A stretch of DNA of 64,000 nucleotides from an uncultured Schlesneria sp. (GTDB lineage: Bacteria > Planctomycetota > Planctomycetia > Planctomycetales > Planctomycetaceae). The translations under genes and the position numbers were made by a program. This document shows positions 28,251 through 39,502 of the stretch, one piece after another (position 1 is the stretch's first letter; each line of letters begins with the position of its first letter). The stretch lies in contig CAIOKO010000143.1 of the NCBI GenBank assembly GCA_903858935.1, forward strand, positions 24,841 through 88,840. Direction: 5' to 3'. The notes beneath the pieces are model-generated. The model was not told where the DNA came from. It ran no database searches and saw only the letters and a program-made list of their open reading frames with translations.

Positions 28251-28442
28251 GTAACACCGTAAAAGTAAACGCAAAAATTGAACCCAGAGCCATCAACGCA
28301 AAAAGGCGACAAGGATCCTCGCAAAAACCTTTTCATCAAGAATACGAAACTTTGAGAAAATCTTGTACGAAATCCGCCGCGAGATTCCACTAATTCAAGA
28401 AAGAGAACCACGGATATTTGTTTGTTGAAAGGCGTGTTTGTC

Positions 28443-30635
28443 ATGCGACTGACTTTGAGAACCCTGTTGGCATATCTAGATGATGTCCTAGAACCTGCAG
28501 ACACGAAAGTCATAGGGATTAAGATTCAAGAGAGTCCGATGGCTCAATTGCTGGTGAGTCGCATTCGAGATGTGATGCGTCGGCGCCGGCTGAAAGCCCC
28601 CGAAGTTTTTGGCCCCGAAATGGGGATCGATCCAAACATTGTCGCCCAGTACCTCGATACAACCTTGCCTGCCGAGCGTTACGCTGATGTGGAACGAGTT
28701 CTACTGGCCTCCGACGAAATGTTGGCTGAGGCTGCGGCATGTCACCAGGTGTTGCCGGTCTGGCTTGCTAATCCGATCGAGGTATCTGCGTCGAGTCGAG
28801 AACGACTCTATGCGCTGGGACCGGTGGATGTTTCGTCGCAGTTATCTCTTACTGCCGACCAATTTTCGCAAGGAGCGAAACTATCGTCCGAACTGGTTGC
28901 AGAACGAAATAGGACGGTGTCGGGCGAGAATGTCAAAGCCGATCCTTCACGTGACGGAGCGACTATCACGGTCCCCGACTATCTCAAACGGACTCCTTGG
29001 TATCAGCGTCTTTTTCCATCGGCACTTGTCGCGTTATTGGTTGTTGCTTGCATCGGCCTGTTGGCTCCTGGAATCATGACTGGTCTTCGGCAAGCCAAAA
29101 ACGAAATTCAACTTCGCGGAGAACGAGATAAAGGGGGGGCACGGAGTGTTACGGATTATCAGTCAAGTTCAAGTGAATCACCACCCTGGGTCATTGACGC
29201 CGATTCACAACTCGCGAACCCCAAGCGAGCGTCGGGGCCTGCACTTGCCAATTCCGATTTGACGAAACTACCGCTCGATCTCGATCCTGTGCCGCCGAAA
29301 GACGATTTTGATGAAATGCAGGTTCCAGCTCCGGCACCATTGACGAATCCAATCGTCGCTGGATCGAATGCAGATAATCTGGTGTCGGACAAATCCACAA
29401 AACAATCTGCGAATTCTGAGCTTCCGCCACCGTCAAATCCGGCTCCGGCTCCTGCCGAAAACGTTGCCGAAGTTCCGATCTCGTACAATTCTAATGAAGG
29501 GGTACTTCTCCATTTTGACGTGCCGAAGCAACGATGGTTTATGGTTCCGCACAGATCCGCGATGAAACCTGGCGAGCTTCTGGCGAATATCGAACCTTTT
29601 GAAACGGTACTCGATTTTGAAAAAGGCAGCCTCAGAACAACACTTCTGGGTGAGACCGTTGTCAATTTAATCAAGCCGATTGAAGTTGGCGTTGCAGGGA
29701 TTGAGGTACGGCGCGGGCGACTATTGCTTCAAAGCAGTCGTTCCAACGAAAACCATATCCACCGAATCGGGATCGCCATTGGAGAAGATCTCTGGAAACT
29801 GGATTTGCTTTCTCAAGAGACTCTGGTCGGATTGGAAGTGGCGCACCGTGAATCGACACAGTTTCAAAAGCTTCAAGAAGGCAATTGGTATCAAGCATCG
29901 CTTTATGTAATAACTGGTTCTGTGCAGTGGACTAATCAGGCAGGCAAAGTTCTGGAAATTGGTGATCATATGGCGTTGAACATTTCACCGGAAAAGAACC
30001 AACAGATTCGTTCGAATCCAATTTCATTCACGGTCGTTCCAGACTGGTGCGACAGCGGGAAACGAAAGGCCTTACCGCTTCGAAAACATCAGTCGCAGGT
30101 GCTGTTTGAGAAGACGTTCGAACTGGATCAGCCGATCGATGCATCGATGATCACTCTCGTGAAGAATTCCAAATTTCCCAAGATCGCGGAGCTGGCGGCA
30201 CAGTGTCTGTCCGCTACAGATAACTATAGCGCACTGGTTGAAACATTAGCAGAATGTCAGCACGAAGAAGCCCGATTTGCAGCTCGCGACGGGTTAAGGC
30301 GTTGGTTGCCGCTTCAACCAGATCGTGGTTTGAAACTGATGAAAGAGTTGGAACTGTTTTATCCGCCTTCAGAAGCCGATGCAATTTATCAGATGATGTG
30401 GGGATTTTCTCGCGAGGACGTCACAAACTCGAAGTCGAATTCCTGGCTATTCATGAATTGGATGCGCAGTACCAAACCAGAAATCCGAGAACTTGCGGAC
30501 TATTGGGTGGAGCGGCTGACCGGCAAGAAAACTGAATACCGCGCCTTGGGCGGAACTGCGGCACAGCGGGAATCTCAGATTCACAGGATGGAAGACCAGA
30601 TCGAGCGAAACAACGGGCTGGTCAAAGCTCCTTAA
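28443..30635 (+). CDS. Large single-span membrane protein, planctomycete-specific
   Basis: About 730 residues when started at ATG 28443 (track start is TTG 28422). The N-terminus MRLTLRTLLAYLDDVLEP and the following ~100 residues, including YLDTTLPAERYADVERVLLASD, recur in planctomycete proteins and resemble an anti-sigma-factor-like cytoplasmic module without a zinc motif. One transmembrane helix lies at about residues 190-210 (LVALLVVACIGLLAPGIM). A proline-rich linker (~residues 265-345) leads to a large extracytoplasmic domain of mixed beta and helix. I cannot assign a function; membrane-bound signalling or envelope stress sensing is a guess from the layout. Confidence 0.75.
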   Translation: MRLTLRTLLAYLDDVLEPADTKVIGIKIQESPMAQLLVSRIRDVMRRRRLKAPEVFGPEMGIDPNIVAQYLDTTLPAERYADVERVLLASDEMLAEAAACHQVLPVWLANPIEVSASSRERLYALGPVDVSSQLSLTADQFSQGAKLSSELVAERNRTVSGENVKADPSRDGATITVPDYLKRTPWYQRLFPSALVALLVVACIGLLAPGIMTGLRQAKNEIQLRGERDKGGARSVTDYQSSSSESPPWVIDADSQLANPKRASGPALANSDLTKLPLDLDPVPPKDDFDEMQVPAPAPLTNPIVAGSNADNLVSDKSTKQSANSELPPPSNPAPAPAENVAEVPISYNSNEGVLLHFDVPKQRWFMVPHRSAMKPGELLANIEPFETVLDFEKGSLRTTLLGETVVNLIKPIEVGVAGIEVRRGRLLLQSSRSNENHIHRIGIAIGEDLWKLDLLSQETLVGLEVAHRESTQFQKLQEGNWYQASLYVITGSVQWTNQAGKVLEIGDHMALNISPEKNQQIRSNPISFTVVPDWCDSGKRKALPLRKHQSQVLFEKTFELDQPIDASMITLVKNSKFPKIAELAAQCLSATDNYSALVETLAECQHEEARFAARDGLRRWLPLQPDRGLKLMKELELFYPPSEADAIYQMMWGFSREDVTNSKSNSWLFMNWMRSTKPEIRELADYWVERLTGKKTEYRALGGTAAQRESQIHRMEDQIERNNGLVKAP

Positions 30636-31707: not shown

Positions 31708-32907
31708 CTAATTCTGGCGAAAACCTCCAGATCGAACAACTCGACGTTGATCTTTGCTGCTAATTTCGTCCTTGAAATTCGATTGCTGAACATGTGGTCG
31801 TATACTGGAGGGTGATTTCTGTGGATCATCAACCATCGTAGAAAAAGTACTGAGTGTCTCTTTGGTTTGCAGAATCGACTGACCATCGGGGAGATCCATA
31901 ACAAACTCAACTGACCTTTGAATTCGAGAATCCGTAGGAAATCCCGTTCTCCGGTCAAAGCGACACACACCAGAGCTGTGGCCACCCTTTACAAGTACTT
32001 TTAGATCACCATCTGGATTTTGAATCGTGAATGGGTTGGGAGATCCGCTTATCCGACCAGTTAACAGAACTTCATCGGTATTTGTCGAACGTTCTTTCAA
32101 AAAGCACCGAGTGTTTGTCATCATGGGTATCGGTGTCTCGCACGTTTGCGGTTCAAGTTCCCAGACTGCTCCTGTCTCGAAAGTGATATCAGACTGCGAC
32201 GAATTTGATTCGTGCGGTATCAGCCCGATGCTGTCGTCGATAAAGGTCGAGATGTATCCTTCGCCTTTTGTCGACTCCAACTGCCGTTGAAGTATCCCGT
32301 GATATTGTGGCGGGACATTTCGCAAACAACGTTGCAAAAAGTCGTTAAAATCAACGACATCGATCACCTTGTTATTCGGGCCAATCCAGAACGAGAATCC
32401 GTTATTCACAAGACCGGAATAAAGTATCGCTTCGTGAGGGACATGCTCCGCAGGCTGGTCGGACGAGTAAACAATTCGATTGCCTCGAATATTTTGCTCG
32501 TAGCTGATTCGGTGATAACGAGCTGAGATTTGCTTTCGACCATCTTCCAGTACATTGTCAATGGCGAGGGACATCGCGATCTCTGCTCGCGAAGCGCTGA
32601 CATGAACACCCTCTCTGTCCGTCTGGATTAACCGATTTTCTACGGTCTTTGAAAATGGAAACCGGTCACCAATTTTTAGACCTGTTCCAGCCGTCTCCTT
32701 TTTCGGAGGTGAGCCCGATCGCTTCTCATTTGGAATGGCTTCGATCTCATTTTCATCTTCCTGCACCGGCTCATCGATCTCCGACAAATCAATGTCCTCA
32801 TCAGTCGAAGCCGACTGAAAGTAGCTGCATCCTGAATTGAAAAGACACAGTATTGTGACACCAAGAATTGTCACAAGCCTCGTCCATCTCAAAGCTGCCA
32901 ATGACAT
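31708..32907 (-). CDS. Lipoprotein of unknown function
   Basis: A 399-residue protein when started at ATG 32907, favoured by GGAAGG seven bases upstream. The signal peptide ends in the lipobox LFNSGC, so it is a lipid-anchored envelope protein. An acidic linker (DEDIDLSEIDEPVQEDENE) follows and then a beta-rich domain from about residue 70, reminiscent of the DUF6263-type lipoproteins; that match is tentative. The tail is polar. It is divergent from the signal peptidase gene, separated by a 328-bp region in which I find no clear promoter or RNA. Confidence 0.75.
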   Translation of the reverse strand: MSLAALRWTRLVTILGVTILCLFNSGCSYFQSASTDEDIDLSEIDEPVQEDENEIEAIPNEKRSGSPPKKETAGTGLKIGDRFPFSKTVENRLIQTDREGVHVSASRAEIAMSLAIDNVLEDGRKQISARYHRISYEQNIRGNRIVYSSDQPAEHVPHEAILYSGLVNNGFSFWIGPNNKVIDVVDFNDFLQRCLRNVPPQYHGILQRQLESTKGEGYISTFIDDSIGLIPHESNSSQSDITFETGAVWELEPQTCETPIPMMTNTRCFLKERSTNTDEVLLTGRISGSPNPFTIQNPDGDLKVLVKGGHSSGVCRFDRRTGFPTDSRIQRSVEFVMDLPDGQSILQTKETLSTFSTMVDDPQKSPSSIRPHVQQSNFKDEISSKDQRRVVRSGGFRQN

Positions 32908-33235
32908 GAAGCAACCTTCCGTGGTGAAATCTATCTTTGAAGATCGCGTGTATCGACGCGCATGAAAAGCAGGCGGCATTCTTGCCGAGGTCGAAAGATA
33001 CCAATGGATGATATGCGCGCGAAGACGGATCTTCTTCTAGCGACGCGACAGGTTGGTGTGTCGGCGCAATTCATAAAGATCAAATTGCTGCTATTTCCTG
33101 GTTCTTGCCGCTTGAAGTAGAATCATTCGGAACTTCCAGATCTTCGCGGCAGACTAAATCTGCTGTTGAGCGACATTACGTTCTTCGGAGCGCAAAAAGA
33201 TGTGAGGTGTTTTTGAGTATTCACGGTTGGTATTG

Positions 33236-34990
33236 ATGAGTGAACTGTTTCAGCCTTCGCCGAAAAAAGATAAAAATGAGCCGGGCATTTCGGCCATCGA
33301 TCCGGATAAACGCGGAACGATTCGAGCGCTGGTGGAAGCTTTCGTATCTTTGTTTGTCGCAGTCCTCCTGTTCCGAACTTTTGCGGCAGAAGGATATATG
33401 ATCTCGACAGGATCAATGGCGCCGTGTCTTTTGGGTTATCATAAGCGAGTTGTCTGCCCCACGTGCGGTATCACTTTTCCGTTTGGAACGGCATACGATA
33501 CTGATGAAGATCCCGATACAGACATCACGATTGCTGGTCGAAGTCGCGCGGTCTGCCCGAATTGTGGCCAGTCTGGAATTGAGGTTTCAGACGTCCCCCG
33601 AAATCATGGGGATCAACTGCTCGTGAACAAACAGGCTTACCTTTATCAATTACCGAAGCGGTGGGATATCATCGTTTTTCGAAATCCTGGACGCCCGACG
33701 GAAGCATATGTGAAACGTCTCGTCGGATTGCCAGGTGAGCGAATTCAGATCGTTGGTGGCGACATTGTGATCAATGGCCAACTGGCACGCAAGAATTTTG
33801 CTGAGCAATTGGCGACACGAATTCTTGTTCACGATCACGACCGCCGTCCTGCCGACGAAGATACTTTTCGACTTCATTGGGAAGCAGTTAATTTAGACAA
33901 TCATGGTGCTGATCGGTCAACATCAGCGTCGTGGACTGGTAAATTGTCCTCGTTCAGCCTGCATGGCCGTGACGTCAGGCGACCCGACAAAGAGCCGATT
34001 GCCTGGGTCGAATACCACCATTGGATTCGCGCAGGCGGGCTACACGATACGTCGGTACCGCTTTCACATTGGCCTGAAGAGGTCAACTCCGCAGTGATCC
34101 CGACCGCTGGCCTGCGGTTTGAGCCGAAGAAAGGTGAGTTTAGCGTTACGGGAGCCTTGCCAGCGAATGCTGCAAGGAAATTACTTGATTCGACAAATGA
34201 TGACGTATTTCGCAATGCGGTACTGGAGCTTTACGAAGCTTCACATATTGTCACGATCTCAGACGAATACGGCTATAATCCGAGCGACGAATCTGGAGCA
34301 CCAAATGCGGTTCGCGATCTCATGCTTTCAATGAATTTGGAAATGAAGGGTGGCGCAGGCGAGTTCATCATTGAAATGACTAACGGCGCAATGGTGTTTG
34401 ACGTTGTGTTTGATGCTGTTCGGCACGAAGTCTATTTGTATGCCGAGCCGCTACCGGAGGGGATGTCGTTAAACTCAGACTTGATGGGAGCCGGACCAAA
34501 TTCAGAACCTGTTGCCTCAGCACCACTGCCAAAGAAGTTGATGGGGAAGGGGGGACTAATTGAGGTTTCATTGTTCGACAAGCAGATTCTCGTCGCGATG
34601 GACGGCAAGGTCGTGATAGCGCCGTGGAAATTCGAAATCCCTTCAGGTGCTCAGGCCCCTCGAATTCCGGTCCGGTTTGGAGGACGAGGTCTCGACATCA
34701 ACGTCAGTCGTCTTAAGCTGTATCGAGATGTATATTATACGGATACGCGCAGCCGACACGCCGTCAATCGTCCATATGAATTAAATGCCGACGAATTCTT
34801 CGTGCTCGGTGACAACAGCCCAGTTTCACATGACAGTCGTCGGTGGGAAAACCCGGTCGTCAATCGATCGCATCTGGTGGGAAAGCCGTTTCTCGTTCAT
34901 CTCCCTTCAAAACCGGGTAATCTTCGAGTGGGAAATCGCGAATTGCTACTGCGGCTACCAGACTGGGATCGCATCCGGTTCTTGCGGTAA
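33236..34990 (+). CDS. lepB: Signal peptidase I with zinc-ribbon and jelly-roll insertions
   Basis: A 584-residue type I signal peptidase that removes Sec/Tat signal peptides at the outer face of the inner membrane. One helix at about residues 31-48 anchors it. The catalytic serine is S60 in ISTGSMAP and the general base is K160 in AYVKRLVGLPGE; the box E motif GDNSPVSHDSRRW is near residue 525. Two features are unusual. A CPTC...CPNC zinc-ribbon (residues 74-110) is placed directly after the catalytic serine. Between box D and box E is an insertion of about 340 residues whose end (VAMDGKVVIAPW, GLDINVSRLKLYRDVYY) resembles a LamG/DUF1080-type jelly roll. Usual lengths are 180-325. ATG 33236 replaces the track TTG 33227. 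Confidence 0.93.
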   Translation: MSELFQPSPKKDKNEPGISAIDPDKRGTIRALVEAFVSLFVAVLLFRTFAAEGYMISTGSMAPCLLGYHKRVVCPTCGITFPFGTAYDTDEDPDTDITIAGRSRAVCPNCGQSGIEVSDVPRNHGDQLLVNKQAYLYQLPKRWDIIVFRNPGRPTEAYVKRLVGLPGERIQIVGGDIVINGQLARKNFAEQLATRILVHDHDRRPADEDTFRLHWEAVNLDNHGADRSTSASWTGKLSSFSLHGRDVRRPDKEPIAWVEYHHWIRAGGLHDTSVPLSHWPEEVNSAVIPTAGLRFEPKKGEFSVTGALPANAARKLLDSTNDDVFRNAVLELYEASHIVTISDEYGYNPSDESGAPNAVRDLMLSMNLEMKGGAGEFIIEMTNGAMVFDVVFDAVRHEVYLYAEPLPEGMSLNSDLMGAGPNSEPVASAPLPKKLMGKGGLIEVSLFDKQILVAMDGKVVIAPWKFEIPSGAQAPRIPVRFGGRGLDINVSRLKLYRDVYYTDTRSRHAVNRPYELNADEFFVLGDNSPVSHDSRRWENPVVNRSHLVGKPFLVHLPSKPGNLRVGNRELLLRLPDWDRIRFLR

Positions 34991-37970: not shown

Positions 37971-39329
37971 TCACCTCATTTTCGATTTCATGTCTACTTC
38001 GAACGGGGCTTTTTGGCTGCCGGGCGTCACTTCTTTAATCTGCATTGCAGCTTCCATCCATTCAGGTGGAACATCGCTGCGCCCTGTTGGACCGATGTGA
38101 TCGACCCACACCCGGCATCGGCCAACGGCAACCCCTTCGATTCGATCGGCGGGAATATACATCATCTTGAAATTGCCGTTTGCGTCGGAGACTCCGACTG
38201 AGGTGCGGATTCGGTCTCGTTTTTTTCCTTCCATTTGCACCTCTTCCGGCGAGAAGTAAATAGTCGCCCCGGGAAGAGGCTGACCATTGAGTTTGATCAC
38301 TCCACTCACATACCCCATCTTTGGAAGGTAAAGCTTTGTTCCAAACATTCGATCGGCCATGAAATACAAAACAAATGTAAGAAGCGTTGCTCCCGCGAGA
38401 ATCCCCAGGCCTTTCAGGCCAAACTCGCGAAAGAATTCTCCAAAATCAAATCCGGCATTAGCGTCGATCTCACGTTGATGAGATTCTGCAGCCTGATTGT
38501 CTTTGATTGCCTTTTTCATCATCTTCGCGGCCGTCGCCAAGTCCACTTTTTCTGGCTGTGCTCGCGGGACGGGGGCAGTTGGTGCGCGCCTTGAAATCGG
38601 AGCTGGTTCAGGGCGATCTTCTAAATCAATATCTGAATCATCAGAAAGAGAAAGCTCCGGAATTTCGTCATGGTCATTCGCTCGTGCGATTTCCCGCTCC
38701 TGCTTAACAACCGGAGGGTCTGTCACCAGGAACTTCGATGGATCAAACTGCTCAATGACCGGAGCAGGTGGTCGCGCTGGCTGCGCACTGAAGAATTCTT
38801 TGTCCGCTGCGAAAGTTGACTTTTCACTTCGAAATGATTGGGGTGGCGATATTGCCGTCCGTGCCTTTGAATGATGCGTCAAAACCAGCATGGGAGGACA
38901 ATCAAGGTCCTCGTCGCCGGAACTTTCAGCATCACCTTCAGTCAACGGATGAGGCACGGCATTCGAATTCAGTGAATCAGAAGTTTCGCTTGATTCGTCA
39001 TCGAGTCGTAGGGGCTTGGAAGGTGCGGAAACTGGTGGCAAGACGGTATTTGACGAGTCGTCGTTGTCGTCTTGTTCTTTTGCGTGCGCTCGCTGATCTG
39101 GAATTTGATCGGTCAAATTACCACGGCCTGAAGTAGCACCATCGGTTGAACTGGTCGTTTGATCGTTCGACGAGACGTCCTCGATTCTGGAGACAAGCTC
39201 GATCTCCGAATCTGTTGCCGGGACCACAAACTTCGTTTTACATTTTGGACAGCGCCCCGACGTTCCCGCGAGTTCGTCCTTGATTTTAAGGACCGAGGCA
39301 CATTCCGCGCAAGTAAAACGAATCGTCAT
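37971..39329 (-). CDS. Zinc-ribbon, single-span membrane protein with carboxypeptidase-regulatory-like domain
   Basis: A 452-residue protein when started at ATG 39329 (track adds 22 codons). The first 35 residues are a zinc ribbon of the MJ0042/planctomycete type (FTCAECASVLKIKDELAGTSGRCPKC). A long acidic, disordered linker covers about residues 45-310. A transmembrane helix (LGILAGATLLTFVLYFMA) follows, then a C-terminal beta-sandwich (GVIKLNGQPLPGATIYFSPE) typical of carboxypeptidase-regulatory/transthyretin-like domains common in planctomycete envelope proteins. The ribbon is cytoplasmic and the sandwich extracytoplasmic. Function unknown. It is the likely second gene after the DUF1559 gene. 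Confidence 0.8.
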   Translation of the reverse strand: MTIRFTCAECASVLKIKDELAGTSGRCPKCKTKFVVPATDSEIELVSRIEDVSSNDQTTSSTDGATSGRGNLTDQIPDQRAHAKEQDDNDDSSNTVLPPVSAPSKPLRLDDESSETSDSLNSNAVPHPLTEGDAESSGDEDLDCPPMLVLTHHSKARTAISPPQSFRSEKSTFAADKEFFSAQPARPPAPVIEQFDPSKFLVTDPPVVKQEREIARANDHDEIPELSLSDDSDIDLEDRPEPAPISRRAPTAPVPRAQPEKVDLATAAKMMKKAIKDNQAAESHQREIDANAGFDFGEFFREFGLKGLGILAGATLLTFVLYFMADRMFGTKLYLPKMGYVSGVIKLNGQPLPGATIYFSPEEVQMEGKKRDRIRTSVGVSDANGNFKMMYIPADRIEGVAVGRCRVWVDHIGPTGRSDVPPEWMEAAMQIKEVTPGSQKAPFEVDMKSKMR

Positions 39330-39502
39330 GCCACTGCTTCCAAAAATTCTCGGGCAACCGGCAACGATTGACCGCGTTGTTGACGAGGTGTTCAATCAAT
39401 TATTTTGGAGAAACGATCGCGCTGAAATGTCACGTCTCTAAACAACGCGAGGCTCTAAATGCCCTTTCGAAGTCTTGGCTTTGCGATCATGACGTCAATG
39501 GG

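Follow-up and report, generated by a model that had tools for sequence, protein, structure and literature searches.

The 64,000-nucleotide stretch of DNA analysed here (the window), from an uncultured Schlesneria species, encodes a type I signal peptidase of family S26 on its + strand (33236..34990), an A-type paralogue of 584 amino acids whose open reading frame begins with ATG at 33236 and ends with a stop codon at 34988-34990. The earlier note's recognition of signal peptidase I is borne out by matches to the S26 models PF10502 (E value 4e-29; 102 bits against a cut-off of 22.9) and TIGR02227 (E value 6e-26; 91 bits against a curated cut-off of 47), by the presence of boxes B to E and by an intact Ser60/Lys160 dyad. 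Alignment locates box B (TGSMAPCLL, 33407..33433), with the nucleophile Ser60 at 33413-33415, and box D (YVKRLVGLPGE, 33707..33739), with the general base Lys160 at 33713-33715; together with profile alignment to Escherichia coli LepB it also locates box C (HGDQLLVNKQAY, 33605..33640), with the motif GDQLLVNK, and the box E region (FFVLGDNSPVSHDSRRW, 34793..34846), in which box E itself (GDNSPVSHDSRRW, residues 525-535) has the pattern GDNSPxSxDSR, all on the + strand. The serine nucleophile in SxMxP and the lysine general base in (Y/V)KR by which signal peptidases are recognised are both found. An alignment of 65 relatives spanning the phylum was the basis for conservation and for an AlphaFold2 model; S60, K160 and R161 are invariant across it, as are the other box B residues T58, G59, M61 and A62. 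The model (mean pLDDT 86.9, pTM 0.86) recovers the catalytic fold of the E. coli enzyme (Foldseek matches to 1t7d, 3iiq and 1kn9, E values 8e-6 to 9e-5).

A single N-terminal transmembrane helix (residues 28-51, 33317..33388, + strand) is predicted ahead of box B from the AlphaFold2 helix and hydrophobicity, and its positive-inside charge suggests an N-in/C-out orientation. E. coli LepB (PDB 1b12/1t7d/9nlo) shares boxes B to E, the Ser-Lys dyad and the catalytic fold (Foldseek TMt about 0.4-0.5) with the window protein, but has two N-terminal helices. SpsB of Staphylococcus aureus (4wvg) and SipA likewise share the S26 core, the membrane-associated sheet and a cap domain at the same place, but their cap domain is minimal and they have no ribbon (in part PMC4049620). 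Elsewhere in the window, the divergent neighbour of the gene (31711-32979, - strand) encodes a DUF6263 domain (E value 2e-10) with an N-terminus that is lipoprotein-like by eye, and a 731-residue membrane protein (28440-30632, + strand) is FecR-like by eye, its Pfam search having returned no match. A 474-residue protein starting CAEC...CPKC (37974-39395, - strand) appears by eye to have an MJ0042-like N-terminal zinc ribbon, and no Pfam match was found for it at 1e-3.

Boxes B and C are separated by a zinc-ribbon-like loop (residues 68-123, 33437..33604, + strand) that contains C74 and C77 (CPTCG) and C107 and C110 (CPNCG) and takes up 58 profile positions between PTLL and GD, where E. coli LepB has one residue. 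The CPTC...CPNC element does begin 14 residues beyond the nucleophile, as had been claimed: C74 lies exactly that far from Ser60 of TGSMAP. The four cysteines, together with the 14-residue spacing, have been retained by 36 of 36 same-family orthologues, far more than chance would give, and the cysteines are nearly invariant in the 65-sequence set, so the alignment with other planctomycete LepB proteins proposed in the earlier note finds them conserved. The four cysteines are nearly all-or-none: among 147 loop-bearing enzymes both knuckles are present in 133, neither in 10 and the first only in 4, the corresponding numbers being 43, 8 and 2 in a subset not chosen by cysteine pattern. Two co-conserved CxxC knuckles on a hairpin, the hallmark of a zinc ribbon, are found, the hairpin being seen at the first knuckle of the AlphaFold2 model (strands 69-73 and 80-84).

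The loop resembles the zinc ribbons of TFIIB, RPB9, HypA and Zn_ribbon_3 in having two CPxCG knuckles, of which the first sits on a predicted beta hairpin, but it is predicted to be extracytoplasmic, within a membrane protease, and the window protein stays below the Pfam cut-offs. An extracytoplasmic location is unusual for a zinc ribbon. No curated zinc-ribbon model matches the window protein above its cut-off (the best Pfam score is 15.4 bits against 25.6), and for this reason the loop is called ribbon-like and not a zinc-ribbon member; single members of the family weakly match zinc-ribbon Pfam models (Zn_ribbon_3, DZR, TFIIB and HypA among others). The zinc ribbon that had been proposed beside the nucleophile is upheld as a ribbon-like four-cysteine element by its conservation and hairpin, zinc itself being putative. 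In the AlphaFold2 model the loop connects the strand before the serine (53-55) to the strand after it (127-131); strands 1, 2 and 10 of SipA and the E. coli enzyme have been described as a membrane-associated sheet (PMC4049620). Because the loop joins strands that flank the serine and would belong to this sheet, it likely lies at the membrane face, and its assignment to a part of the enzyme at the membrane surface is plausible. The possibility that it replaces the extended beta-ribbon that follows box C in E. coli was ruled out, as profile alignment puts it before box C.

In three families (f5, f87 and f2) some copies retain the loop although none of its four cysteines is present, so not every enzyme of this type needs zinc. 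In a quick tree with several long branches, made without the ribbon columns, the cysteine-less loops nest within clades that bear the ribbon, once in f5/f87 and once in the B-type of f2. Joint loss of the four cysteines thus appears to have happened on at least two occasions; loss is argued from this nesting, as counts of changes alone cannot tell gain from loss. The full-length loops that lack all four cysteines (L057:4317-6164, L061:2612-4624 and L066-L070) come from two separate lineages and constitute a natural experiment on the need for zinc. In the signal peptidases of three other loci (L073, L272 and L290) the stretch from box B to box C contains four CxxC pairs, possibly a double ribbon.

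About 330 extra residues separate box D (K160...PGE168) from box E, close to the estimate of about 340 in the earlier note. Like the extra domain of E. coli LepB, the insert (residues 184-512, 33785..34771, + strand) lies between boxes D and E, and profile alignment places it where that enzyme has domain II (the cap domain), of only about 95 residues. The insert is ordered and not disordered in the AlphaFold2 model, most of its blocks having pLDDT above 85. Its second half (residues 340-505, 34253..34750, + strand) is a ConA/LamG-like beta-sandwich by Foldseek, hhalign and conservation. Besides the E. coli signal peptidase, Foldseek against the PDB returned CBM66, GH32 C-terminal domains, galectins, ERGIC-53 and laminin G (TMt 0.62 for galectin LEC-6 and 0.45 for CBM66, residue coverage not being printed). 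In hhalign comparisons this half aligns to LamG_3 domains of its own genome with an E value of 1e-6 and a probability of 91, whereas the controls gave E values of 0.38-0.90 (shuffled columns) and 0.13 (S26 core against PF06439). Both fold (Foldseek) and sequence homology (hhalign, LamG_3) point to the ConA-like/LamG superfamily, and on these two grounds the C-terminal half of the insert is, by predicted structure and profile comparison, a divergent ConA/LamG-type domain, in agreement with the jelly-roll-like region described in the earlier note. Although it shares the predicted sandwich fold of LamG_3, CBM66 and galectin domains, it sits inside a protease and scores below Pfam cut-offs, no LamG-type Pfam model matching the window protein above its cut-off. 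Close kinship to PF06439, which has 28 matches in the genome, was rejected: with the whole insert, its alignment reaches an E value of 1e-5 and spans 60 columns, whereas that of LamG_3 reaches 3e-6 and spans 118.

Across the 65 sequences the invariant or near-invariant positions of the insert are K186, Q191 and W233 and, in the sandwich half, Y347, N348, D361, D448, R497, D498 and Y501. Mean conservation is 0.44-0.47 in the insert, lower than the 0.71-0.75 of the core. Domain II of signal peptidases has been described as a region of variable size that has no conserved motifs (PMC4049620); here a single fold is kept phylum-wide.

Other roles can be proposed for both modules. The cysteines might form disulfides or a redox switch instead of a zinc site, as expected of an oxidising compartment: their predicted location is extracytoplasmic, CxxC pairs serve as redox motifs elsewhere, and the cap domain of E. 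coli contains a disulfide. This we consider unlikely, because CPxCG...CPNCG knuckles on a predicted hairpin are a zinc-ribbon signature, individual members match the Zn_ribbon_3, DZR, TFIIB and HypA models, and the four cysteines are retained or lost jointly with few intermediates, whereas independent disulfides could go singly. An equally doubtful proposal is that the insert is a working lectin tethering the peptidase to envelope glycans; although its nearest folds (CBM66, galectins and ERGIC-53 by Foldseek) bind carbohydrate and the source genome is rich in related ConA-like domains, many such domains bind proteins or nothing, the near-invariant insert positions number only about ten, several of them beside the joins to the core, and the insert is less conserved than the core.

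The loop and insert are not oddities of the window gene, as both are lineage-wide. At E<1e-5 the insert profile matches 163 of the 172 planctomycete S26 genes that were examined, ribbonless ones among them, and the insert is thus, on these profile matches, a phylum-wide feature of the Planctomycetota, with the ribbon as a second, patchier layer. Universality of the ribbon in the phylum was ruled out: of 294 genomes sampled from across the phylum, 77 contain its strict DNA pattern (3 matches for the reversed control), and it is truly absent from several families, in which box B runs directly into box C. A pattern scan of 84,980 species (SM(A/D/E/G/V)PTLxG-x6-CxxC) gave, among the matches listed (80 loci), all but 3 in Planctomycetota, including Scalindua, Brocadiaceae, Phycisphaerales, Isosphaeraceae, Gemmataceae and Pirellulaceae; the 3 outside loci among those listed (Burkholderiales, Paraburkholderia and Streptomyces) are chance matches, none of them S26. 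Chlamydial LepB is also unusually long. A short S26 subfamily of about 345 residues (L060, L062, L123 and L170) has TN(S/A)MAP as box B and lacks the D-E insert; in three of the four the first CxxC is intact and the second degenerate, and in L062 the catalytic serine is replaced by alanine. An S26 homologue with both ribbon and insert (L054:3006-4616, - strand) has both catalytic residues replaced (TGGMAP, and VQR for VKR) and is likely a pseudo-signal-peptidase, as known for SipA.

The source genome, which is 99.96% complete, has two S26 genes and no others, namely the window gene and one B-type paralogue (IPTGSMAPTL); both carry loop and insert, and no undecorated S26 enzyme was found in this genome. 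As these are the sole S26 genes, the housekeeping role must fall to one of them or to both. Two further matches to the S24/S26 superfamily are frames of 205 and 236 residues, about as long as LexA. The A and B genes are usually tandem neighbours across the family, but are separated in the source genome and in two relatives (G216 and G283). Gemmataceae, Isosphaeraceae and Planctomycetaceae are each represented in both the A clade and the B clade of the tree, which indicates that the duplication predates these families; this phylogeny makes the window gene the A copy from an old duplication within the class Planctomycetia, and replacement of the usual single LepB by A and B together is the best explanation. 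A serine precedes TGSM in 37 of 37 A-type proteins (36 orthologues and the window protein; I/V-S-TGSM), and a proline precedes box B in 137 of 169 members of a mixed S26 set.

Two further readings concern the division of labour between the copies. In one, which we regard as improbable, the precursors cut by A differ from those cut by B, and the signal-peptide groove is shaped by the ribbon and by the I-S-TGSM (not I-P-TGSM) context. The ancient duplication has been kept, usually as a tandem pair, the residue before TGSM differs as described, and the ribbon adjoins the nucleophile; against this, B also carries ribbon and insert, so the modules do not distinguish A from B, and, inspected by eye, the secreted proteins of the source genome resemble normal small-x-small precursors (5 of 23 have a strict A-x-A, with no control set). 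Also against it, the mature N-termini of Kuenenia stuttgartiensis, determined by mass spectrometry, match the canonical AxA pattern; a single signal peptidase I is annotated in this organism, and its Sec machinery was called canonical by the authors (PMC2881027). Less probable still, and in our estimate very unlikely, is that B alone is the housekeeping enzyme, the window gene having decayed or taken on a dedicated, non-general role: A-type proteins deviate from the canonical I-P-x-G-S and pseudo-signal-peptidases exist (SipA, PMC4049620; L054 here), but every catalytic residue is invariant and a full-length A-type match is present in most genomes of the family.

The reading that we favour, and hold to be reasonably probable, is that the window gene is the A copy of the duplication and encodes a working, housekeeping-type Ser/Lys signal peptidase whose ribbon and insert serve positioning and docking and leave the cleavage motif unchanged. 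One N-terminal helix would hold the enzyme in the membrane, with the catalytic domain outside the cytoplasm; the four-cysteine hairpin would be a rigid, metal-stapled element near the active site that positions the enzyme at the membrane or the translocon exit; the ConA/LamG-type insert, in place of the cap domain, would serve docking or stabilisation in the periplasm; and cleavage chemistry and the small-x-small motif would stay as they are. We infer catalytic activity, zinc, topology and the positioning and docking roles; positioning is a best guess from location alone, and docking a best guess from location, conservation and predicted fold. Named Scalindua and Brocadiaceae loci have both ribbon and insert, and genomes of family f44, taken as Brocadiaceae, have one ribbon match each. 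As Kuenenia has canonical AxA sites and its family, as sampled, has ribbon and insert, the modules probably leave the cleavage motif unchanged; the earlier suggestion that they could alter signal-peptide choice is so far unsupported, since these N-termini follow the canonical AxA (PMC2881027). The other suggestion of the earlier note, a binding partner, is possible in the case of the insert.

The planctomycetes have an unusual envelope and internal compartments, and signal peptidase I, which most bacteria cannot do without, is a target for antibiotics. With no plain LepB in this lineage, rules derived from E. coli should be applied with caution when signal peptides are predicted or the binding of inhibitors is judged. 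A search of the open-access literature found no account of either the ribbon or the lectin-fold cap, and both are apparently undescribed, though widespread in planctomycetes. Because the Sec machinery had been called canonical in work on anammox sorting (PMC2881027), the part that these domains may play in the organisation of planctomycete export was not considered. A bolder, rather improbable possibility is that Planctomycetota have remodelled an essential secretion enzyme, the lectin-fold cap and an extracytoplasmic zinc site beside the nucleophile coupling cleavage to a phylum-specific envelope or translocon partner, and A and B splitting the secretome between two destinations. One contig labelled Kuenenia stuttgartiensis (L130) encodes a signal peptidase whose box B context is like that of the Planctomycetia B-type and unlike the Scalindua/Brocadiaceae type; judged by this context, the contig is possibly mis-binned.
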